From NCBI GenBank assembly GCA_021848605.1, contig JAJZUM010000007.1, positions 1-34,631 of the forward strand: a DNA stretch of 34,631 nucleotides, given 5' to 3'. Under the pieces are notes generated by a model. That model was not told the DNA's origin and made no database searches. It saw nothing but the letters and a program-made list of their open reading frames with translations. Position 1 is the first letter of the stretch. Every line of letters starts with the position of its first letter. This document shows, in pieces, positions 3,450 through 34,631 of this stretch. The DNA is from Pseudomonadota bacterium (GTDB lineage: Bacteria; Pseudomonadota; Gammaproteobacteria; Pseudomonadales; Moraxellaceae). Both the position numbers and the translations under genes were made by a program.

Positions 3450-4201
3450 TGTTGTCGACCTGGAATCAGTTGGTAATGACCAATGGCAAAGGCGCGACTA
3501 AGACAGTCCTGAGTGTAGTGCAAGGCTTTGGCCGCAACTTCAGCAAGTGTCAGTCCTTGGGCTAGCAGGCAGGCACAGGCTGAGGCAAGGGTACAGCCAC
3601 TGCCATGAAACTCGCCCGGCAGGCGTATGGCTTCGTGTCGATGCATGACGCCTTCAGCGGTAACGAGTTCATTGACAATCATTGCGCCCCGGCGGTGCGC
3701 ACCTTTGATCAGCATGGCTTTCAGGCCGCGGGCAAAAAGCTGATCCATCGATGTGCCGGCACAGATTGCCTGCAGTTCTGGAATATTGGGTGTGAGCAGG
3801 GTTGTATAGGGTAAAAGGGTCAGAAGTGCATCGAGTAGATGGGGCTTTGCCAGTGAACCCTGAAGATTGCCTGCAAGTACGGGATCAAGAATGACAGGGA
3901 CCTGTGGATATTGTTCCAGTAATTCCTTGGCAACGGATACGATGGCTGGATCAGCCAACATGCCCAACTTGAATGCGTTCGGTGTACAGTCATGTAGCAA
4001 GGTGTTCGCTTGCTGGCGAAGCTGTGCTGGATCGACTGCCATGAAATCATGAACGGAACGGGTATCTTGACGGGTGAGTGCTGTAATCAGGCTTATGGCA
4101 TGTCCACCCATGGCCTGGATCGCCTCAATATCGGCTTGGATGCCAGCACCACCTGTTGGGTCATGGCCAGCCATGACCAGCACGATTGGTTTTGGTTTCA
4201 C
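3446..4201 (-). CDS. thiD: Hydroxymethylpyrimidine (phosphate) kinase
   Basis: ThiD phosphorylates HMP to HMP-P and then HMP-PP, the substrate of ThiE encoded next to it. The 251-residue ribokinase-fold protein shows the N-terminal motif MAGHDPTGGAGIQADIE (residues 10-26), FKLGML near 97, VILDPVLAG near 125, TPNIPE near 158, KGAHRRG near 184 and the anion-hole/catalytic GEFHGSGCTLASA near 213. The start is GTG 4201, whose last bases overlap the hemJ stop (GTGA); this fits the family alignment exactly. It is a ThiD-only version with no fused ThiE. Co-transcription with hemJ from the promoter at 4650-4678 is likely. Confidence 0.93.
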   Translation of the reverse strand: MKPKPIVLVMAGHDPTGGAGIQADIEAIQAMGGHAISLITALTRQDTRSVHDFMAVDPAQLRQQANTLLHDCTPNAFKLGMLADPAIVSVAKELLEQYPQVPVILDPVLAGNLQGSLAKPHLLDALLTLLPYTTLLTPNIPELQAICAGTSMDQLFARGLKAMLIKGAHRRGAMIVNELVTAEGVMHRHEAIRLPGEFHGSGCTLASACACLLAQGLTLAEVAAKALHYTQDCLSRAFAIGHYQLIPGRQQ

Positions 4202-10739: not shown

Positions 10740-10954
10740 GGCGTTTCCCCCCGCCCCGAATCAAGCCCTTCCATCGACTGCTGCTTGATCCAAGCGTCAA
10801 TGTCCGCTTTGGAAAAGCGCCAAGTACCACCAACCTTGAAAGCGGGGATCTTCTTGGCACCTGCCAGTCGGTAAATCGTGCGCTCCGTGACCTTCAGGTA
10901 GTCGGCGACCTGCTTGATGGTGAGGATTTCACCCTCAGGGGGACTTGTAGACAT
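10736..10954 (-). CDS. Excisionase-family helix-turn-helix DNA-binding protein
   Basis: The 72-residue protein matches the excisionase/MerR-like HTH family: LTIKQVADYLKVTERTIYRL (residues 11-30) forms the HTH, followed by the wing IPAFKVGGTWRFSKADIDAWIKQQ. I chose ATG 10954 because the 40 residues of the longer frame are not conserved and the promoter at 10985-11013 sits inside that extension. It is the first gene of a three-gene operon and overlaps the ATPase start, so it probably autoregulates the module. There is no recombinase in this island, so a true excisionase role is unlikely. Confidence 0.85.
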   Translation of the reverse strand: MSTSPPEGEILTIKQVADYLKVTERTIYRLAGAKKIPAFKVGGTWRFSKADIDAWIKQQSMEGLDSGRGETP

Positions 10955-10984
10955 GGTAAAGGCCAATTTTGGGCAAACTCCGAC

Positions 10985-11013
10985 AGGATAGTGCAAAGTT
11001 TTCAAGGTATCAA
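10985..11013 (-). promoter_or_regulatory. Putative promoter of the HTH-ATPase-DUF4276 operon
   Basis: Minus-strand TTGATA (5 of 6) and TATCCT (4 of 6) are separated by 17 bp. The predicted start of transcription is about 25 bases before the HTH ATG. It gives the accessory operon a promoter separate from the flanking core genes. Confidence 0.55.
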
Positions 11014-11081
11014 TGACAGCTGGCTGCTGCTGGCAGAACGGGAAGAGGATCATGCCGCGGTATTCCGGACACATCCAAAAA

Positions 11082-11110
11082 GCCTGATCATGGGCCGCCT
11101 GATCATGGGC
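11082..11110. repeat. Tandem 14-bp direct repeat
   Basis: GCCTGATCATGGGC occurs at 11082-11095 and again at 11097-11110, a 15-bp period. Each copy contains the palindrome TGATCA. The pair lies about 70 bp upstream of the promoter of the HTH-ATPase operon, near the ychF-proximal edge of the island. It could be an operator for the HTH protein or a scar of insertion. Confidence 0.7.
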
Positions 11111-11166
11111 TAAAAGTTGTGTTATGTCGACTAGGGGGAAGTATTCACCTGCGCGGCGCCATCAAC

Positions 11167-11186
11167 GGTTGTTGCATGCAACGACC
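11167..11186. repeat. 20-bp near-perfect palindrome
   Basis: A perfect 12-bp palindrome GTTGCATGCAAC (11171-11182) extends outward to 20 bp with a single G-T mismatch (flanks GGTT and GACC). It lies just downstream of the ychF terminator hairpin. It is a candidate protein-binding site or chromosome-side remnant of an insertion junction. Confidence 0.6.
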
Positions 11187-11187
11187 T

Positions 11188-11216
11188 GAAATGAACAAGC
11201 CCCGTATCCACGGGGC
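11188..11216 (-). terminator. Putative intrinsic terminator of the pth-ychF unit
   Basis: A 7-bp stem GCCCCGT/ACGGGGC with loop ATCC spans 11199-11216. Read on the minus strand it is followed by TTGTTCATTT, a moderately T-rich tract. It lies about 65 bp after the ychF stop. Confidence 0.55.
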
Positions 11217-11279
11217 CTTGCGTTGATTTCATCGATGCGCCTGCAAGCAAGTGCAATCGCCTGAAATGGCTAGTTCGAA

Positions 11280-12371
11280 TCAGACGTTGAAGCGAAAGTG
11301 CATGACATCGCCATCCTGAACAATATAGTCTTTGCCTTCGAGTCGCCATTTGCCAGCATCCTTGGCACCCTGCTCACCTTTGTAGCGAATGAAGTCGTCG
11401 TATGCAATGACTTCGGCACGGATAAAGCCCTTTTCGAAATCGGTATGAATGACGCTGGCTGCCTTTGGGGCTGTTGCGCCTTTGGCAACAGTCCAAGCCC
11501 GAACTTCCTTGACCCCAGCCGTGAAGTACGTCTGTAGTCCAAGCAGTTCATAGCCGGCACGAATCACACGGTTCAAGCCGGGTTCTTCCATGCCGAGGTC
11601 ACTAAGAAAATCTAGGCGTTCACTTTCATCCAGTTCGGCAATCTCGGCTTCAATTTTGTTGCAAACAGGCACAACGACGGCCTTTTCTTGTTGGGCCAAC
11701 GCGCGGACGGCATCCAGATAAGGATTGTTCTCAAACCCGTTTTCGGATACGTTGGCAATGTACATCACGGGTTTGGTCGTAATCAGGCACAATGGCCGCA
11801 GCAGAGTAAGCTCATCGGTATCAAGTTGTAAGGATCGGGCTCGTTTGCCTTCAGCCAGAACCGGCTGTAGTTTTTCCAGGACTGGTTTGAGGGCAAGGGC
11901 CTCCTTATCACCAGCCTTGGCCTGCTTGCTGATGCGGTTCAGGCTTTTCTCAACGGTGTCCAGGTCGGCCAGTGCCAGTTCCATATTAATAATTTCAATA
12001 TCATCAACCGGATTGATGCGGTTGGATACATGGATGACGTTTTCGTCGTCGAAGCAGCGAACCACATGGGCAATGGCATCTGTTTCACGGATGTTGGCAA
12101 GAAACTGATTGCCAAGGCCTTCGCCTTTGGATGCACCGGCAACCAGACCAGCAATATCGACAAATTCCATACTTGTAGCAACGACCCGTTCTGGCTCGAC
12201 GATTTCTGCCAGGGCATCAAGACGTGGGTCTGGCATGGGAACGACACCCGTATTGGGTTCAATGGTACAAAACGGAAAATTTTCTGCAGCAATGCCGGCT
12301 TTGGTAAGGGCATTGAACAGGGTGGATTTGCCGACATTCGGCAATCCGACGATTCCGCAATTAAATCCCAT
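11280..12371 (-). CDS. ychF: Redox-regulated ribosome-associated ATPase YchF
   Basis: YchF is an Obg-family P-loop protein that prefers ATP and binds the ribosome; it is linked to stress responses and translation fidelity. The 363-residue protein has G1 [11 protein letters not shown] (residues 9-19), the switch sequence [20 protein letters not shown] near 73, a non-standard base motif NVSEN in place of NKxD near 205, and a C-terminal TGS domain ending [11 protein letters not shown]. Length is that of the family. The start lies 3 bp after the pth stop, the common pth-ychF pairing, and the gene ends at the island boundary. Confidence 0.96.
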
Positions 12372-12374
12372 GGT

Positions 12375-12956
12375 TCAGGTTCCTTTAGCGGTTGACGAGT
12401 GGACGAGGTTCATGAAGGAAGCTGTATTGCCATCGAGCAAAAGCTGCCGATGCTCCAGTGCCTTAACGATACTTTGGTCGATCAGGGTACGTTCCGTTTG
12501 CCCGGGAGCGTGCAGGACAAAATCAACGACATTCTTTTGGCCGGCAGGAGGTCTGCCAATGCCCACACGCAGACGCGCAAAACCCGAATGCCCCAGCGCC
12601 TGAATGATGTCGCGCAGACCATTATGCCCGCCATGCCCACCACCTATCTTGAGACGGATCTGGCCGACACCAAGATCAAGTTCATCATGGGCAACCAAAA
12701 TGTCTGCAGGAAGAATCTTGAAGTAATGGGCAACACTCAGAACTGCCAGGCCTGACTTGTTCATGTAGGTATCCGGCAACAAAAAACGCACATCACCCAT
12801 GCGGGCAATACGTCCGTGCAAACGGGAATCACTCGACCAGTTCAGACGAAGACAATCAACCCACTGTTCGACGAACCAGGCCCCGGCATTATGCCGGGTA
12901 TCGGCATATTCCGGGCCTGGGTTGCCAAGCCCGACAATCAGACGAAATCCCGGCAT
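12375..12956 (-). CDS. pth: Peptidyl-tRNA hydrolase
   Basis: Pth releases tRNA from peptidyl-tRNA dropped by stalled ribosomes. The 193-residue enzyme shows VGLGNPGPEYADTRHNAG with catalytic His22, TYMNKSG near 63, VAHDELDL near 88, LKIGGGHGGHNGLRDI near 101 and the RLRVGIGRP motif near 128. Size and motifs are standard. It lies between rplY (18 bp upstream) and ychF (3 bp downstream), the usual translation-related cluster. Confidence 0.96.
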   Translation of the reverse strand: MPGFRLIVGLGNPGPEYADTRHNAGAWFVEQWVDCLRLNWSSDSRLHGRIARMGDVRFLLPDTYMNKSGLAVLSVAHYFKILPADILVAHDELDLGVGQIRLKIGGGHGGHNGLRDIIQALGHSGFARLRVGIGRPPAGQKNVVDFVLHAPGQTERTLIDQSIVKALEHRQLLLDGNTASFMNLVHSSTAKGT

Positions 12957-12974
12957 GATGAGTCAGTCTGGACC

Positions 12975-13571
12975 TTATTCTGCGTCTGTAGTGGATTTAT
13001 GCACGTTGGCAACCGGCTGGTCGTGATCGTGTCCAAGCGCCAGAACCGGAATTTCAACACCTTCGGGCAGTTTCAGGTCAGAGAGGTGCAAGGTTACGCC
13101 GACTTCAATGTTGGCCATATCCACTTCAATGAACTCAGGCAGATTGGCGGGTAGACAGCTGATTTCGACATCTGTCGTGTAGTGGGTAATTTGACCTCCA
13201 CCTGTTTTGACGCCAACACAGAGATCCTGATTGATGAAGTGCAGGGGTACACGAATGGTCAAGCGGGCCGTTGTATCAATACGCTGGAAATCGACATGCA
13301 TGGGAAACCCTTTGGCGGGGTGGCGCTGCATGGCTTTGATCAGGGCTGGTTCTTTGCTTCCTTCGATATCCAGGGTAATAACCTGTGAGAAAACGGCTTC
13401 GTTTTCGATGGCCTTGACCAAATCTTTAAGGGCAACGGAAATCGATTTGGGCGCATTTTTTCCGCCGTAGATAATGCCAGGAACGCGAGATTCCAGACGA
13501 CGAAGGCGGCGGCTCGCACCTTTCCCTTCTTCGTTCCGGACCCGGGCTTCCAGAGTAAGTTGTGTTGACAT
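12975..13571 (-). CDS. rplY: 50S ribosomal protein bL25, long Ctc form
   Basis: bL25 binds 5S rRNA in the large subunit. The 198-residue product is the long two-domain (Ctc/TL5) form. The N-terminal domain runs from LEARVRNEEGKGASRRLRR to HPAKGFPMHVDFQRID (residues 7-98) and the beta-rich C-terminal domain from there to about 185, including LPANLPEFIEVDMANIEVG. TAGGAGTT lies 5-6 bases before the ATG. The gene sits between prs and pth as in many proteobacteria. Confidence 0.95.
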   Translation of the reverse strand: MSTQLTLEARVRNEEGKGASRRLRRLESRVPGIIYGGKNAPKSISVALKDLVKAIENEAVFSQVITLDIEGSKEPALIKAMQRHPAKGFPMHVDFQRIDTTARLTIRVPLHFINQDLCVGVKTGGGQITHYTTDVEISCLPANLPEFIEVDMANIEVGVTLHLSDLKLPEGVEIPVLALGHDHDQPVANVHKSTTDAE

Positions 13572-13593
13572 GATGAACTCCTAGGTGAATTAA

Positions 13594-13614
13594 GGCTGTC
13601 TGCGACCAACAGCC
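13594..13614. other. Small hairpin between prs and rplY
   Basis: GGCTGT/ACAGCC with a 9-base loop lies between the prs stop and the rplY ribosome site. On the minus strand it is followed by TTAATT. It could be a weak attenuator or an RNA-processing hairpin in the rplY leader; evidence is limited to the stem. Confidence 0.3.
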
Positions 13615-13629
13615 GGGTTGTGAAAAAAA

Positions 13630-14580
13630 TTAGTAACGATCAAACATGGCACTGATTGATTCTTCATTGTTGATACGGCGCACCGTTTCTGCAAGAAGCG
13701 CAGAGATGCTGACCTGTCGAATGCGTCCACTGGCGGATGCTGCAGCCGACAAAGGAATGGTGTCGGTAACGACCAGTTCATCAAGCTTGGAACTGCGGAT
13801 ATTGTCAATGGCTGGTCCGGAAAGAACAGCATGCGTGCAATAGGCCAAGACACGGCGAGCTCCATGTTCTTTGAGCGCGGCGGCAGCCTTGCATAGAGTG
13901 CCAGCGGTATCAACTATATCATCAACAATAACACAGTCCCGATCCTTGACGTCGCCGATGATGTGCATGACCTGAGACTCATTAGCACGTGGCCGACGTT
14001 TATCAATAATGGCAAGATCGGCGTCATCCAGTTGCTTGGCAACTGCACGCGCACGAACCACGCCACCAACATCAGGGGAAACCACAACCAGTTCACCGTC
14101 GTGGTTTCGTTCCAGGTCAGCGAGCAGGACTGGAGAGCCGTAAATATTATCGACCGGGATGTCAAAGAACCCCTGAATCTGATCCGCATGCAAGTCAACG
14201 GTGAGAACTCGATCAATCCCAACGGTGGTGATCATGTCGGCGACAATTTTTGCAGTGATTGGTACTCGGGCAGAACGCACACGGCGATCTTGGCGAGCAT
14301 ATCCAAAATAGGGAATCACGGCAGTCACACGGCCAGCAGAAGCACGCCTTAAGGCATCCGCCATGACAACAAGTTCCATGAGGTTGTCGTTCGTTGGATT
14401 ACAGGTCGATTGGATGATAAAAGCATCCTTGCCGCGCACGTTTTCTCGGATTTCAACCTGGATTTCACCGTCACTGAATCGTCCCACCTGGGCTTCGGCA
14501 AGCGGGATGTGCAAATGCGACACGACTTTATGGGCCAGTGCAGGATTGGCATTTCCAGTGCAGACAACGAGATTGGGCAT
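13630..14580 (-). CDS. prs: Ribose-phosphate pyrophosphokinase (PRPP synthetase)
   Basis: Prs makes PRPP from ribose-5-phosphate and ATP for nucleotide, His and Trp synthesis. The 316-residue protein starts [16 protein letters not shown]. It has the flexible catalytic loop region [21 protein letters not shown] near 94, [22 protein letters not shown] near 129, [12 protein letters not shown] near 166 and the PRPP loop [13 protein letters not shown] near 215. The longer upstream frame crosses toward the tRNA-Gln gene and is not conserved, so I chose ATG 14580. The upstream tRNA gene is 82 bp away and may share the transcript. Confidence 0.96.
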
Positions 14581-14662
14581 GATGTATGTACCTGAGATGT
14601 GTCTAGACCAGCCAACAGGGTCCATTGGCAATATATCAATGCATTCCGGAAAGGTTCTGGAA

Positions 14663-14737
14663 TGGCAGGGGCGGATGGATTCGAACCACCGCATGGCGGG
14701 ATCAAAACCCGCTGCCTTACCGCTTGGCGACGCCCCT
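14663..14737 (-). tRNA. tRNA-Gln (anticodon TTG)
   Basis: The 75-nt sequence folds as a cloverleaf: acceptor AGGGGCG/CGCCCCT, D arm GCC..GGC, anticodon stem GCGGG/CCCGC around the loop TTTTGAT (anticodon TTG), T arm GGTGG/CCATC around TTCGAAT, discriminator G and an encoded CCA. The D arm and anticodon loop closely resemble known proteobacterial tRNA-Gln. It lies between ispE and prs, the usual place in related genomes. Confidence 0.95.
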
Positions 14738-29880: not shown

Positions 29881-30233
29881 GGGGGTGACCTGGCTTTGAC
29901 GGCGGTAATGAAGCTGGAGGTGCATGCCGAGACGGTGACGGTCTCGTACCTAAAAGTCACAAAATAGTAGTCGCAAACGACGAAACCTACGCACTGGCTG
30001 CCTAATCCCGGCCTACGACTGAACTTGCCTGCCTATGGGCGGGGGATGTCGGCGCAAAAAACATAGGATCGCCTGATGTTCTGCCTCGAGACTGATGGCT
30101 AAAACCCCAGAGGATCGCATACGGCTCCCTGCCCGTTGGGCCGCCGGATGTTAAATCAATAAATTGGGCTAAGCATGTAGATCCAAAAGTGGAGTGCTGA
30201 CGGACGCGGGTTCAATTCCCGCCACCTCCACCA
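29881..30233 (+). ncRNA. ssrA: tmRNA (transfer-messenger RNA)
   Basis: tmRNA rescues stalled ribosomes and tags their products for proteolysis. The 353-nt gene starts GGGGGTGACCTGGCTTTGAC and ends with a T arm (GCGGG TTCAATT CCCGC) and CACCTCCACCA; the 5' GGGGGTG pairs with 3' CACCTCC as the acceptor stem. The open reading frame at 29973-30005 encodes ANDETYALAA followed by TAA, with GCA as resume codon. The 3' end is intact and serves as integration site of the element that begins right after it. Confidence 0.97.
30206..30233 (+). other. Probable attachment site (att) at the ssrA 3' end
   Basis: The T-arm and acceptor 3' half of ssrA are followed at once by accessory DNA and, 210 bp on, by a tyrosine integrase pointing away. 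This is the usual layout for elements that insert in the tmRNA 3' end and restore it. The matching copy (other att site) is expected beyond the right edge of the window. Confidence 0.7.
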
Positions 30234-30264
30234 ATCAATGATTCAAGTAAGTCCAATGAAGTCC

Positions 30265-30300
30265 AAAAAACCCAAGAAAATCAACGTTCTTGGGTTTTTT
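30265..30300 (+). terminator. Strong bidirectional terminator downstream of ssrA
   Basis: A perfect 14-bp inverted repeat (30265-30278 with 30287-30300, core AACCCAAGAA/TTCTTGGGTT, 8-base loop) ends in six T residues on the plus strand and six A residues at its start, so it can end transcription from both sides. It lies inside the element, so it probably replaces the native ssrA terminator. Confidence 0.85.
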
Positions 30301-30355
30301 GTTATCCTGGTAAGTCCTATCAGTTCCTTAGAGCTCCATTGACGACCCGTACAGC

Positions 30356-30428
30356 GTGACGGTACTTTAGACGGTATATTTAGGATTCGTACCGTTAGAT
30401 ACCGTCACCCACTGTTTTGTCCGTCACC
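30356..30428. repeat. Array of short repeats upstream of the integrase
   Basis: ACGGTA occurs at 30359-30364 and 30371-30376, and its complement TACCGT at 30390-30395 and 30400-30405, forming a symmetrical set around a 13-bp centre. The outer pair extends to GTGACGGTA/TACCGTCAC (30356-30364, 30400-30408). A further CCGTCACC occurs at 30402-30409 and 30421-30428. This looks like arm-type integrase sites or an operator over the int promoter. Confidence 0.65.
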
Positions 30429-30443
30429 TCAAGGGGGATTCTG

Positions 30444-31661
30444 ATGCCACTGACTGATATTCAATGCAAATCAGCCTCAACGAAAGAACAAGGTAAGCCC
30501 CAGAAGTTTCAAGATGAGAAGGGGATGTACCTGCTGGTGACCACCAGTGGCAAGTACTGGCGCTTTGATTATCGATTCGTCGACAAGCGAAAGACCCTTG
30601 CGCTTGGTATCTATCCTGAGGTTAAGCTGAAGGAAGCACGACAAAAACGGGATGAAGCACGGCAGTTACTGGAGCGAGGTATTGATCCAGGCCAACATCG
30701 CAAGATTCAGAAGTTGGCTCGTGGGGTGATCCATGAGTCCTCATTTGAGGCATTGGGCCGTGAATGGTTTAGTCGACAACAGTCCATCTGGTCAGATAGC
30801 CATGCTGATCGTATTTTGCGTCGACTTGAACGGGATGTTTTCCCGTGGCTGGGAGCGCGGCCCATCATGGAGATTGAGCCACCTGAACTGCTGCTGGTTT
30901 TGCGCCGGATTGAAGGTCGGGGAGCGATAGAGACCGCGCATCGGGCCAAGCAGGATTGTGGGCAGATATTCCGGTATGCGATTGCTATCGGAAAGGCAAC
31001 ACGTAATCCCGCAGCGGACTTGACGGGTGCACTCACTCCTGTCGCGAAGTCTTCATTTGCGACGATTACGGAGCCTAAGAAAATTGGTGAACTGCTTCGA
31101 GCCATGGATGGGTATGAGGGAACCATGATTAGCCGTTGTGCGCTGAAGTTGACCCCCTTGGTTTTTGTACGGCCCGGGGAATTGAGGAAAGCGGAATGGT
31201 CCGAGTTTGATCTGGAGGGAGCGCGCTGGGTGATTCCTGCTGAACGGATGAAAATGCGTGAAAGGCATGTGGTGCCTCTGTCGCGTCAGGCGCTGGCTGT
31301 TTTACGGGAGATTCAGTCCTTGACCGGACACCTTCGTTATGTTTTTCCTGGAACCAATCAATCTAAAAGGCCTATGTCTGAAAATACCGTCAATGCGGCC
31401 TTAAAGCGTTTGGGATACATGGGTGATGAGATGACTGTCCATGGATTTCGGCACATGGCGTCCACCTTGTTGAATGAGTTTGGTTTTAGTGCAGATGCCA
31501 TTGAGCGGCAACTGGCTCATGGGGATCGAAACAAAATCAGAGCAACGTATAATTACGCGGAATACATGCCTGAACGCATCAGGATGATGCAAGCCTGGGC
31601 AGACTATCTGGATAGTTTGCGTCAAGGAGCTGAAGTTATACCCATTCACAAATATGGATGA
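30444..31661 (+). CDS. P4-type tyrosine site-specific integrase
   Basis: The 405-residue recombinase integrates and excises the element at the ssrA 3' end. It has the DUF4102-type N-terminal arm-binding domain (KFQDEKGMYLLVTTSGKYWRF...TLALGIYPEVKLKEAR, residues 21-67), a SAM-like core-binding domain (about 100-190) and the catalytic domain with Arg243 (RPGELRKAEW), Lys270, HGFRH (His333, Arg336), His359 (LAHGDRN) and nucleophile Tyr369 (TYNYAEY). All catalytic residues are present, so it should be active. AAGGGGG lies 7 bases before ATG 30444; a start at 30417 would cut into the repeat array. Confidence 0.95.
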   Translation: MPLTDIQCKSASTKEQGKPQKFQDEKGMYLLVTTSGKYWRFDYRFVDKRKTLALGIYPEVKLKEARQKRDEARQLLERGIDPGQHRKIQKLARGVIHESSFEALGREWFSRQQSIWSDSHADRILRRLERDVFPWLGARPIMEIEPPELLLVLRRIEGRGAIETAHRAKQDCGQIFRYAIAIGKATRNPAADLTGALTPVAKSSFATITEPKKIGELLRAMDGYEGTMISRCALKLTPLVFVRPGELRKAEWSEFDLEGARWVIPAERMKMRERHVVPLSRQALAVLREIQSLTGHLRYVFPGTNQSKRPMSENTVNAALKRLGYMGDEMTVHGFRHMASTLLNEFGFSADAIERQLAHGDRNKIRATYNYAEYMPERIRMMQAWADYLDSLRQGAEVIPIHKYG

Positions 31662-31673
31662 AGTACCATCACA

Positions 31674-31874
31674 TCATTGTTCAGGGTATAACGAGGCGAT
31701 GTACCCTAAGACTTCATTACGATGCCAGACGCTGGTTCGGCCAATTTTGCGAGGAGCCGGAAATTCGCCATGCTCGATCCGGGTATAAAGGTTTGAACGC
31801 GAGATAGGCACCATAGCGAGAACATCCGGTAGCCGCAGCAAAATCTTTTCGTGTTTCTTGTCTTGATCGTTCAT
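31674..31874 (-). CDS. AlpA-family HTH transcriptional regulator
   Basis: The 66-residue protein matches AlpA-like excisionase/activators: LLRLPDVLAMVPISRSNLYTRIEHGEFPAPRKIGRTSVWHRNEVLGYI. AlpA of P4-like elements activates integrase or excision. GGAGA lies 7 bases before ATG 31874; the longer start at 31904 leaves no ribosome site. It converges on the integrase with 12 bp between the stops, so its transcript would run antisense into int unless ended. An AT-rich stretch upstream (31890-31940, with TAAAAT on the minus strand) probably holds its promoter. Confidence 0.88.
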   Translation of the reverse strand: MNDQDKKHEKILLRLPDVLAMVPISRSNLYTRIEHGEFPAPRKIGRTSVWHRNEVLGYIASLYPEQ

Positions 31875-32034
31875 GTTTATTCTCCGTACGAAAAAAGGGG
31901 ACAAAATATTTTAGATGATTATTTTTAAATTGAAGGAGGATTTGTTTGAAATCAATGAGATGATGTGATCAGAACGCATACACTGGGCAAAAAGATGTTC
32001 TCTGTTCTGGTTTTTTGATGCATCCATCGCCGCG

Positions 32035-32053
32035 CCCACCGCTGTGCGGTGGG
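32035..32053. repeat. 8-bp stem with 3-base loop
   Basis: CCCACCGC TGT GCGGTGGG is a perfect hairpin without a following T-run on either strand, so it is not a typical terminator. Its form would suit a single-strand initiation or protein-recognition hairpin, which matters because the relaxase downstream carries a primase domain. Confidence 0.55.
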
Positions 32054-32100
32054 GTGAAAGGAACTGCAAAAGCTTGCTGTGTTCGAGATTCTGCCAGTAT

Positions 32101-32400
32101 GGGGCGGGTTAGGTGTGTGTGCTCTTGCTGTGTGGTGTGTTCACGTGGTTGTGGTGTTTGTTGGTTTGGGGGTGTGTTCAGAGTGGGTTGCGTGATGTGA
32201 TGTGTGGGCGGCTGACTAGGGTTGAGTGCATCCGTTTCTTAGGGGGGGTGCTGGCCCTGCACTGTAGAGTGTGTTCTGAGGTTTTTTTGCTTAATCCTTG
32301 GCTGACTCAGGAATTGCTGTTTTGTGGTGTCGTATCACGGATCTTGCTGATTCTTAGAGGGTGCAGGATTTGGCTGTTGCTGGATTGCCTGTGGTGACTT
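32101..32400 (+). other. Strand-biased G+T-rich tract
   Basis: By hand count, about 228 of these 300 bases are G or T on the plus strand (about 101 of the first 120), against the near-even mix of the flanking genes. It contains runs such as GTGTGTGTG and TGTGGTGTG but no tandem repeat of fixed unit. No gene of fitting codon pattern is present. Confidence 0.6.
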
Positions 32401-32506
32401 TCTTGCGTACGTTATTTTGTGGGCCTAACATGGGGTCGTGCGAAGTTTAGCAGCTTGGCTGGTTAGAAGCAAGCCATGTTTTCGCTTTGCTCAAACGGCT
32501 TGGCAA

Positions 32507-32548
32507 GGGCTACGCCCCTGCACCCCGACGGTGCCGTAACTGGCACCG
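32507..32548 (+). other. Candidate origin of transfer (oriT)
   Basis: CGGTGCC (32529-32535) and GGCACCG (32542-32548) form a 7-bp stem with loop GTAACT, preceded by GGGCTACGCCCC (32507-32518), a second short inverted repeat. The position directly upstream of mobC-mobA is the usual place of oriT in MOBP systems. The nick site cannot be placed with confidence. Confidence 0.5.
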
Positions 32549-32579
32549 CCTACCGCATTCACGCACAGGAGGTTTGTTC

Positions 32580-32963
32580 ATGACGGCAGAAGCAGCAGTG
32601 CGCAAGGGCCGCGGTGGTCGCCCCAAGGGCGATCCCTCTGCCGTGCGCACCTCAACCATTGGCGTCCGGGTGTCGGTGGAGGAATATGCCATGCTCCGGG
32701 CCAAGGCCGAGCAGATGGGGCTGACTCCGGCGCAGTGGTTGCGGGAAGCAGCATTGTCCCGGCGGTTGCCATCGCCGCCGGTTCCAGCCATCAACCGTGA
32801 GCAGTATGCCGAGCTGGCGAGGTTGTCTGCCAACCTCAATCAGCTGGCACATGCGGCTAATGCCGGGCAGCCTGTCATGGTTGCTGATGCGCTGTTGCAG
32901 CGACTGGCCGGTGAAGTGGGGCGGCTTCGTCTGGCGCTGATTGGCGTGGTGGACAGGTCATGA
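32580..32963 (+). CDS. mobC: Mobilization accessory protein MobC (relaxosome)
   Basis: MobC-type proteins bind oriT and help the relaxase open the DNA. The 127-residue protein has a basic N-terminus (RKGRGGRPKGD), a ribbon-helix-helix segment TIGVRVSVEEYAMLRAKAEQMGLTPAQWLREAALSRRLP (residues 26-65) and a C-terminal helical part with the motif LARLSANLNQLAHAAN near 82 seen in MobC families. AGGAGG is 7 bases before the ATG. A 31-codon longer frame would translate the oriT hairpin and was rejected. The stop overlaps the relaxase start as ATGA. Confidence 0.85.
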   Translation: MTAEAAVRKGRGGRPKGDPSAVRTSTIGVRVSVEEYAMLRAKAEQMGLTPAQWLREAALSRRLPSPPVPAINREQYAELARLSANLNQLAHAANAGQPVMVADALLQRLAGEVGRLRLALIGVVDRS

Positions 32964-34631
32964 TTGCCAAGATGATCAAGGGACGTGGCTTTCGTGGGGC
33001 GCTGGAGTATGACCTCAAGAAAGAGAAGGGGCGTGTCCTTGATGGCAATATGGCTGGGCGAAACCCGCGTGAACTTGCTGCCGAGTTTGGCGAGATCCGC
33101 AAATTGCGTCCGAATTTAGGCAAGGCGGTGCTTCATGTTTCGTTGTCGGCGGCCATTGGCGAGAAGCTTACAGACGATCAATGGTGTGCGATTGGTAAGC
33201 GGTATTTGCGCGGGATGGGTTTTAAGGATAACCAGTTTCTGATTACCCGGCATACGGATACCGAGCATGAGCATATCCATATTCTGGCGAACCGGATTAC
33301 CACGGCTGGGGAGGTGGTGAGTGACGGACAGGATTACCAGCGGCAGGAAACCATCATGCGTGAGATTGAGCTGGAGTATGGCCTGCAACGGGTGGTTCCG
33401 AGCCGTGAAAGTGAGCGTAGAGCACCGACTAAGGGTGAGATTGAGCAAGGGATCCGGACCGGTCGCCCCTCTACACGTCAGTGTCTACAGCAGCTGTGTG
33501 ATGCGGCGGCACAGGACTGTCACTCATTTACAGACTATCTGGAACGGCTGGAGGCTGTTGGGGTTGAGGTTATACCGACCGTACAGAAGGGGGGAGCCAG
33601 GCTTTCTGGCATACAGTACCGTCTGGACGGGGTGATCATGAAGGGTAGTGATCTGGGCAAGATTTATGCGGCAGCGGGGATTCAGAAACGAGGAATTATT
33701 TATGAGCAAGACCGAGATTTTGCGGCAGTCAGCCGCAGCCTTGAACGCGAAGCGACTCGAGGAGCTGGCCGGCCAGATCGAGGCGATGAGGCAAGCCAAA
33801 AACCGGAGCGTGGAGGAATTGGCCACGATGCTGGAACCCCTGGCGCAGTCAATGGCAGCCCTGGCCGACGAAACGCGGAAGACGTTGATCGAGATCGACC
33901 GCATGAGCCGGGAGCAGGGCAAGACGTTCAAACAGCAGCTAGTGGACTCGGTGAAGAGCTACAAAGACGCGGCAGCAGCAGCGAGCAAGGCCGCCGAGAG
34001 TCTGAGCCGAGCAGGGAACCGGATGGACTGGATTCACTACAGTTTGGCCCTAGCGATTGGACTGGCGACAGCGGTGCTTGTGAGCGTATTCTTTCTTTGG
34101 CTGGCACCGACGCCGAGTGTTCAGAACACGCTGGATCCACAGGCAGTCGCCAATTTTCTAAAACCCGCCGTGATCGAAGCCTTGAGGCCATCCGGCGGCA
34201 GGTAGAAGCGCTGGGTTCATCGCATTTTGATATCGAAATTCGGGAAGTCAGGAGTGGTCAAGTCATAAGACGGTTATGGACTCGTCCTCAGTTGGAGCAG
34301 TCGACCAAGTGGCTCAAACGGATGAATGCCAGGGGCAATGATATTTTTATCCGCCCGGCGGGTGATCATGGTCTGGTACTGGTCAAAGATCTCAAGGCAG
34401 AGAATCTGCAGCGCATGAAGGCCGATGGTTTTGCTCCTGCCGCAATCCTTGAAGTTGGCCTAGGCACTTATCAGGCGTGGGTGAAACTATCCGATCAAGC
34501 TCTGTTCGCAGGCGTTCGGCAGCTTGCCGAGCAAGATTTGGCAAAGAAATACGGTGCACAGAAAAAAGGAGACAGTTGCGGTTATGGGCGGTTGGCGGGT
34601 TTTACGAATCAGAATGTGGAATATATAGATC
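32960..34631 (+). CDS. mobA: MOBP relaxase fused to RepB-type primase, 3' end beyond window
   Basis: The frame is open from the ATG to the last base, 557 codons without a stop. Residues 1-about 245 are a MOBP relaxase: FRGALEYDLKKEKG with the likely nucleophile Tyr17, LGKAVLHVSLS near 53 and the metal-binding His motif in RHTDTEHEHIHILANR (about 97-112). Residues about 248-415 form a charged, Gly/Arg/Glu-rich linker of low conservation that overlaps the MobB gene. From about 415 the frame resembles RepB/TraC-type primase domains: IEIREVRSGQVIRRLWTR, WLKRMNARGNDIFIRPAGDHGLVLVKDL, YQAWVKL and YGRLAGFTN. The product would nick oriT, lead the strand into the recipient and prime its complement. 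Start ATGA overlaps mobC. This is the layout of IncQ-type MobA/RepB. Confidence 0.88.
   Translation, partial: MIAKMIKGRGFRGALEYDLKKEKGRVLDGNMAGRNPRELAAEFGEIRKLRPNLGKAVLHVSLSAAIGEKLTDDQWCAIGKRYLRGMGFKDNQFLITRHTDTEHEHIHILANRITTAGEVVSDGQDYQRQETIMREIELEYGLQRVVPSRESERRAPTKGEIEQGIRTGRPSTRQCLQQLCDAAAQDCHSFTDYLERLEAVGVEVIPTVQKGGARLSGIQYRLDGVIMKGSDLGKIYAAAGIQKRGIIYEQDRDFAAVSRSLEREATRGAGRPDRGDEASQKPERGGIGHDAGTPGAVNGSPGRRNAEDVDRDRPHEPGAGQDVQTAASGLGEELQRRGSSSEQGRRESEPSREPDGLDSLQFGPSDWTGDSGACERILSLAGTDAECSEHAGSTGSRQFSKTRRDRSLEAIRRQVEALGSSHFDIEIREVRSGQVIRRLWTRPQLEQSTKWLKRMNARGNDIFIRPAGDHGLVLVKDLKAENLQRMKADGFAPAAILEVGLGTYQAWVKLSDQALFAGVRQLAEQDLAKKYGAQKKGDSCGYGRLAGFTNQNVEYID
33702..34205 (+). CDS. mobB: MobB-like membrane protein nested inside mobA
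   Basis: This 167-residue protein is read one base later than the relaxase frame and lies wholly inside it. It has a helical, Ala/Glu/Lys-rich N-terminal half with coiled-coil character (residues 4-108, e.g. KRLEELAGQIEAMRQAKN), one strong membrane helix (about 112-134, HYSLALAIGLATAVLVSVFFLWL) and a short periplasmic tail. GAGGA lies 8 bases before the ATG. In IncQ plasmids MobB is likewise nested in mobA, sits in the membrane and stabilises the relaxase at the coupling protein. Similarity is by position and topology, so the symbol is provisional. Confidence 0.8.
   Translation: MSKTEILRQSAAALNAKRLEELAGQIEAMRQAKNRSVEELATMLEPLAQSMAALADETRKTLIEIDRMSREQGKTFKQQLVDSVKSYKDAAAAASKAAESLSRAGNRMDWIHYSLALAIGLATAVLVSVFFLWLAPTPSVQNTLDPQAVANFLKPAVIEALRPSGGR

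Follow-up and report, generated by a model that had tools for sequence, protein, structure and literature searches.

We consider it likely that the right part of the DNA analyzed here, a stretch of 34,631 nucleotides (the window), is an integrative mobilizable element that occupies the 3′ end of ssrA, with its left end in view, its transfer half conserved, and the primase fused to its relaxase decaying or dead. The window corresponds to contig C60 of a draft genome of 2.6 Mb (219 contigs, 91% complete), and its right edge at 34631 is the end of the contig and falls inside the primase domain.

The locus and its left boundary

Up to ssrA the window holds chromosomal genes. The tmRNA gene itself (29881..30233, + strand) was recognized by both ARAGORN and Rfam (RF00023), and the element was inserted at its 3′ end. 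In the two sister genomes of the genus, other DNA begins directly behind the ssrA CCA; because they diverge at this point, we placed the left boundary of the element there. The sequence that follows ssrA in the sisters itself resembles another element and was not found in the genome that contains the window. Some 210 bp past the 3′ end of ssrA, and thus placed as a site-specific integrase at a chromosomal target, lies a tyrosine integrase gene (30444..31658, + strand; PF13356, PF22022, and PF00589), followed by a gene for an AlpA-like regulator or excisionase (31677..31874, − strand; PF05930, E 1.7e-8), approximately 0.6 kb of largely G/T-rich DNA, and then mobC and mobA with its nested mobB. 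Between the AlpA gene and the candidate oriT described below, positions 32101-32250 form a strand of 70 G, 54 T, 15 C, and 11 A per 150 bases with no convincing gene. Relatives of the integrase are common in the host family; in 10 regions fetched around the best of them a tRNA gene was close in 7 and ssrA in 1, and a few also carried an AlpA-like gene. Neither an attR, sought as a repeat of the ssrA 3′ end, nor the rest of the primase or the contig-terminal sequence was found on other contigs of the same draft assembly. The contig stops inside the element, in whose visible part (30234-34631) there were no iteron-like or tandem arrays. An earlier note on this DNA had placed the mobilization module within an integrated ssrA element, and the joint presence of tmRNA, integrase, AlpA, and mobC, together with the divergence of the sisters after the CCA, upholds that placement.

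A candidate oriT upstream of mobC

The mobC gene (32580..32963, + strand) encodes a NikA-like ribbon-helix-helix accessory protein (PF21983, E 5.8e-17; PF05713). It is preceded by a conserved candidate oriT of about 60 bp (32460..32520, + strand), which contains the 18-bp core AGCAAGCCATGTTTTCGC, followed in both the window and the Plesiomonas plasmid by a predicted hairpin. The same DNA precedes mobC both in plasmid relatives and in integrated ones, L033 and L130 among them; the exact core was not found in L031. An integrative mobilizable element carries a relaxase and an oriT of its own but no mating-pair apparatus; here the relaxase and a conserved oriT candidate are present, and the right part of the element lies beyond the contig. 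The IMG/VR provirus contig L130 encodes an integrase with 49% identity to that of the window, followed by the oriT core, mobC (65%), and the first mobA codons, at which point that contig ends; judging from this arrangement, the integrase-oriT-mobC-mobA layout recurs. Two integrated elements, L033 and G541, encode relaxases without any primase. L033 also contains, at 10890-14685 between two tyrosine integrases, the Gabija defence pair GajA and GajB (PADLOC, E below 1e-240), which there accompanies mobC and the primase-less relaxase.

The relaxase-primase fusion and its overprinted mobB

As the earlier note had claimed, the mobA/repB frame (32960..34630, + strand) joins a P-type relaxase to a RepB-like primase domain without interruption, running for 557 codons and remaining open until it is cut by the contig end. 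Relaxase PF03432 was matched at residues 20-142 (E 1.5e-35). The profile search, in which the note had named absence of primase homology as grounds for refutation, found RepB_primase PF16793 at residues 450-555 (E 5e-15), and the comparison with RSF1010 that it had proposed recognized RepB′ (3H20/3H25) over residues 399-552 (~1e-37). The PF16793 match covers profile positions 43-149 of 186, with the C-terminal helical domain beyond the contig end. The relaxase gave no hit to PF03389, the MobA_MobL (MOBQ) family of IncQ1, which the IncQ1 control did match.

The nested open reading frame at 33702..34205 (+ strand), which crosses the relaxase-primase linker in another frame, matches Mobilization_B PF17511 (E 5.8e-12), as the overprinted MobB of IncQ plasmids does, and its product has a membrane helix near the C-terminus. 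When the window was compared with its relatives, pS in the MobA frame was 0.19-0.32 in the overlap vs 0.68-0.77 in the relaxase part, and pN/pS in the overlap was about 0.9-1.6 for the MobA frame and 0.34-0.53 for the MobB frame. Because MobA-frame synonymous differences are so few and MobB-frame pN/pS is low, we concluded that the nested mobB is under selection; by this substitution pattern MobB appears to be the constrained product in the overlap, and the MobA linker nearly free. The same dual-frame pattern led us to reject a chance open reading frame as the explanation. The earlier note's second gene with a membrane helix thus stands on both the PF17511 match and the substitution pattern, and its comparison with the overprinted IncQ design holds for the MobB-RepB half.

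Relatives on plasmids

The mobC-MobA/MobB/RepB module also occurs on small plasmids (62-69% identity), with about 60-69% over the fusion in the wider set of small plasmids and contigs, and its closest full-length relatives lie on Plesiomonas and Chitinibacter plasmids (69%), on plasmids of Serratia (63%), and on small plasmid-like contigs. These plasmid relatives are full length, including the primase C-terminal domain PF22448, and their mobC is 64-88% identical to that of the window. In every relative where mobC is visible it lies upstream and is co-directional; the earlier note had contrasted this orientation with the divergent mobC of RSF1010, but it is not special to the element and proved to be the standard arrangement in the closest plasmid relatives. 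The small plasmids (for example, Plesiomonas pPS-MS-17-188-3, Serratia p31A16004_B_KPC, and contigs L025-L029) share with the window the gene order, the co-directional mobC, the overprinted mobB and, in most, the oriT core in the same position ahead of mobC; unlike the window, they are plasmids or plasmid-like contigs without the ssrA integrase, and Asp77-Asp78 of their primases is intact. Where replication proteins of relatives were identified they were TrfA-like (L026, L027, and L028), Rep3 (L029), or RPA (L032), trfA is annotated on the Serratia plasmid, and the IncQ RepA/RepC pair was not the type; therefore, RepA/RepC partners are not expected in the right flank beyond the contig.

Both IncQ groups resemble the window in part. 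IncQ1 plasmids (RSF1010 type) have a RepB-type primase behind the relaxase and mobB overprinted in the linker, but they differ in their MobA_MobL PF03389 relaxase, divergent mobC, RepA/RepC replicon, and an ATG over the mobB stop. IncQ2 plasmids (pTC-F14 and pRAS3) have a P-type PF03432 relaxase fused to a RepB primase, but with extra TraI_middle and LPD7 domains and, again, a RepA/RepC replicon. The window primase is 47-49% identical to IncQ1 RepB vs 26-28% to that of IncQ2. Because its relaxase is of the PF03432 family, as in IncQ2, and its primase is nearer IncQ1 RepB, the module is a mosaic, and one that is established on plasmids.

The fusion was absent from the two other genomes of the genus. 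Among 294 genomes of the order, the best that any other gave was a partial match at ≤35% identity; among 369 genomes of the class, each of the three other matches covered the relaxase alone or the primase alone; and viral and phage collections held no fused relative. Of the RepB primases examined elsewhere in the order, one was a long open reading frame in another island and the others either stood alone on a plasmid-like contig or had conjugation-type genes next to them; no MobA fusion was among them.

Several relatives had individual features of their own. L032 (10001-12229), beside an RPA-type initiator, keeps the relaxase and the overprinted mobB and has another C-terminal region, without a Pfam match, in place of the primase. 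L026 (5700 bp) and L031 (3720 bp) have exact terminal overlaps of 92 and 77 bp, respectively, and are probably small circular plasmids; L031 contains little beyond mobC-MobA/RepB and one small unrecognized open reading frame. In L028, a small TrfA-type plasmid contig with the mob module, ARAGORN predicted a tRNA-Ser (GGA) at 3985-4066 that overlaps an open reading frame. The Chitinibacter bivalviorum plasmid unnamed2 (L003) carries a mob-rep-par module several times as near-identical repeats, which may reflect either a multimer or misassembly.

Loss of the primase active site

In RSF1010 RepB′, catalysis has been assigned to the aspartates D77, D78, and D134 (PMC4434180). Alignment showed that the window has Lys476, Asp, and Gln at these positions, two of the three aspartates of an active RepB′ primase being replaced. 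Of the aligned sequences, 23 keep Asp77-Asp78, RSF1010 among them, down to IncQ2 at 26-28% identity; the only other exception is the Azohydromonas copy L030, which carries D78G and also D134T and D139S. As L030 lies near ileS and ribF in a 308-kb contig, it too is chromosomal. The window codon at Asp77 is AAA, and Asp needs GAT or GAC; since at least two base changes separate them, a single sequencing error does not explain the difference. In the Plesiomonas-type plasmid copies Asp134 is missing as well, owing to a gap of five residues, and for this reason we did not take loss of Asp134 alone as proof. The internal ATG that overlaps the mobB stop in IncQ1, which we took as the RepB′ start because it agrees with the start of the 3H20 chain, is absent from the window as well as from each of the eight family members examined, and thus free RepB′ is not evidently made here.

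The primase has also changed faster than the relaxase. The primase/relaxase path ratio was 2.64 for the window (bootstrap 1.70-4.03), 1.81 (1.22-2.54) for the chromosomal L030, and 0.70-1.83 for the plasmid copies, whose intervals all include 1. At columns invariant in the plasmid copies, the window differed at 23 of 84 in the primase vs 12 of 139 in the relaxase (Fisher p 3e-4). With RSF1010 as the outgroup, Tajima tests gave p 0.001-0.017 for the window against seven plasmid-type copies and p 0.20 against the partial L031; tests of one plasmid copy against another were not significant. Neither in the window nor in L030 was the relaxase accelerated, as judged by path ratios and by relative-rate tests with outgroups, and clear acceleration of the primase was confined to these two chromosomal copies. 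From these results we consider the primase domain probably catalytically inactive and drifting.

The frame is nevertheless still open, and pN/pS of the window primase against plasmid copies is 0.29-0.44, so that either the decay is recent or a non-catalytic role, such as DNA binding or stability, is still selected; such a role for the primase fold is possible for the same reason. A stronger form of this idea is that the changes are adaptive, the fold being kept for a new role, for example at another single-strand site or in support of the relaxase. The open frame and low pN/pS fit this, as does retention of core motifs such as QAWVK and YGRLAGFTNQ; however, the catalytic residues and the TSPxN motif were lost together, and a similar loss occurred in the unrelated chromosomal copy L030, and we regard adaptation as unlikely, though less so than the two alternatives considered below.

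Discussion

How an integrative mobilizable element of this kind would move can be outlined from family knowledge. The tyrosine integrase, with AlpA, would excise a circle; MobC and MobA would bind and nick the candidate oriT at ~32460-32520; membrane-anchored MobB would help pass the relaxase-DNA complex to a type IV secretion system supplied by a conjugative element in the same cell, none of which is visible here; and the transferred strand would re-integrate at ssrA in the recipient. Complementary-strand synthesis would depend on host primase, because the RepB domain is probably inactive.

Another arrangement of the same genes would be two separate insertions, in which a plasmid or plasmid remnant landed in an older ssrA island represented by the integrase-AlpA end, leaving the mob module as an immobile relic. 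The degenerate primase, the truncated contig, the lack of an attR in the draft assembly, and the other chromosomal fused copy, Azohydromonas L030, which shows no integrase nearby, are consistent with such a history. Against it, conservation of the relaxase, mobC, mobB, and oriT core is good, the relaxase shows no acceleration, and the integrase-oriT-mobC-mobA order recurs in L130, an independent contig; we think separate insertions improbable.

Least probable, in our judgment, is the earlier note's proposal of an active relaxase-primase that primes its own complementary strand, with an excised circle that may replicate as an IncQ-like plasmid: a recognizable RepB_primase domain, an open frame with pN/pS below 1, and the residence of relatives on plasmids speak for it, but self-priming and plasmid replication are disfavoured by the loss of Asp77 (Lys) and Asp134 (Gln), the fast primase branch, the lack of an internal RepB′ ATG in the family, and the TrfA, Rep3, or RPA initiators of the relatives, and, with no iterons there, replication after excision finds no support in the visible part.

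We return, then, to a probable integrative mobilizable element with a decaying or dead primase. Relaxase-RepB′ fusions have already been described by Kazlauskas et al. (2018; PMC5862659), who, in the portions of the published text at hand, also report primases of the wider supergroup (archaeo-eukaryotic type) in elements integrated at tRNA genes and one tmRNA gene; those portions make no mention of an overprinted mobB or of primase active-site loss. What is new here is that a single ssrA element combines the fusion and the overprinted mobB with a primase active site that has been lost. In other respects it adds a further member to the integrative mobilizable elements, a class already known.

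Asp77 or Asp78 was lost in both of the chromosomal fused copies and in none of the seven distinct plasmid-type copies, a contrast with a chance of 1/36 if the copies are independent, and suggestive only. We infer that the fusion originated on plasmids and that priming activity has been lost. Tentatively, and with rather less confidence than we place in the element itself, we propose that capture of the module by the chromosome led to loss of the primase active site, with relaxase, MobB, and oriT remaining under selection, and that the fused primase matters more for life as a plasmid than for conjugal transfer. The reason for the relaxase-primase fusion in IncQ-type plasmids is unsettled and may lie in replication, in priming the strand that is transferred, or in the two together. 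That relaxase, MobB, and oriT were kept as the primase active site was lost suggests that an integrated element can do without self-priming, and a plasmid copy and a chromosomal copy form a ready pair for comparison on this question.
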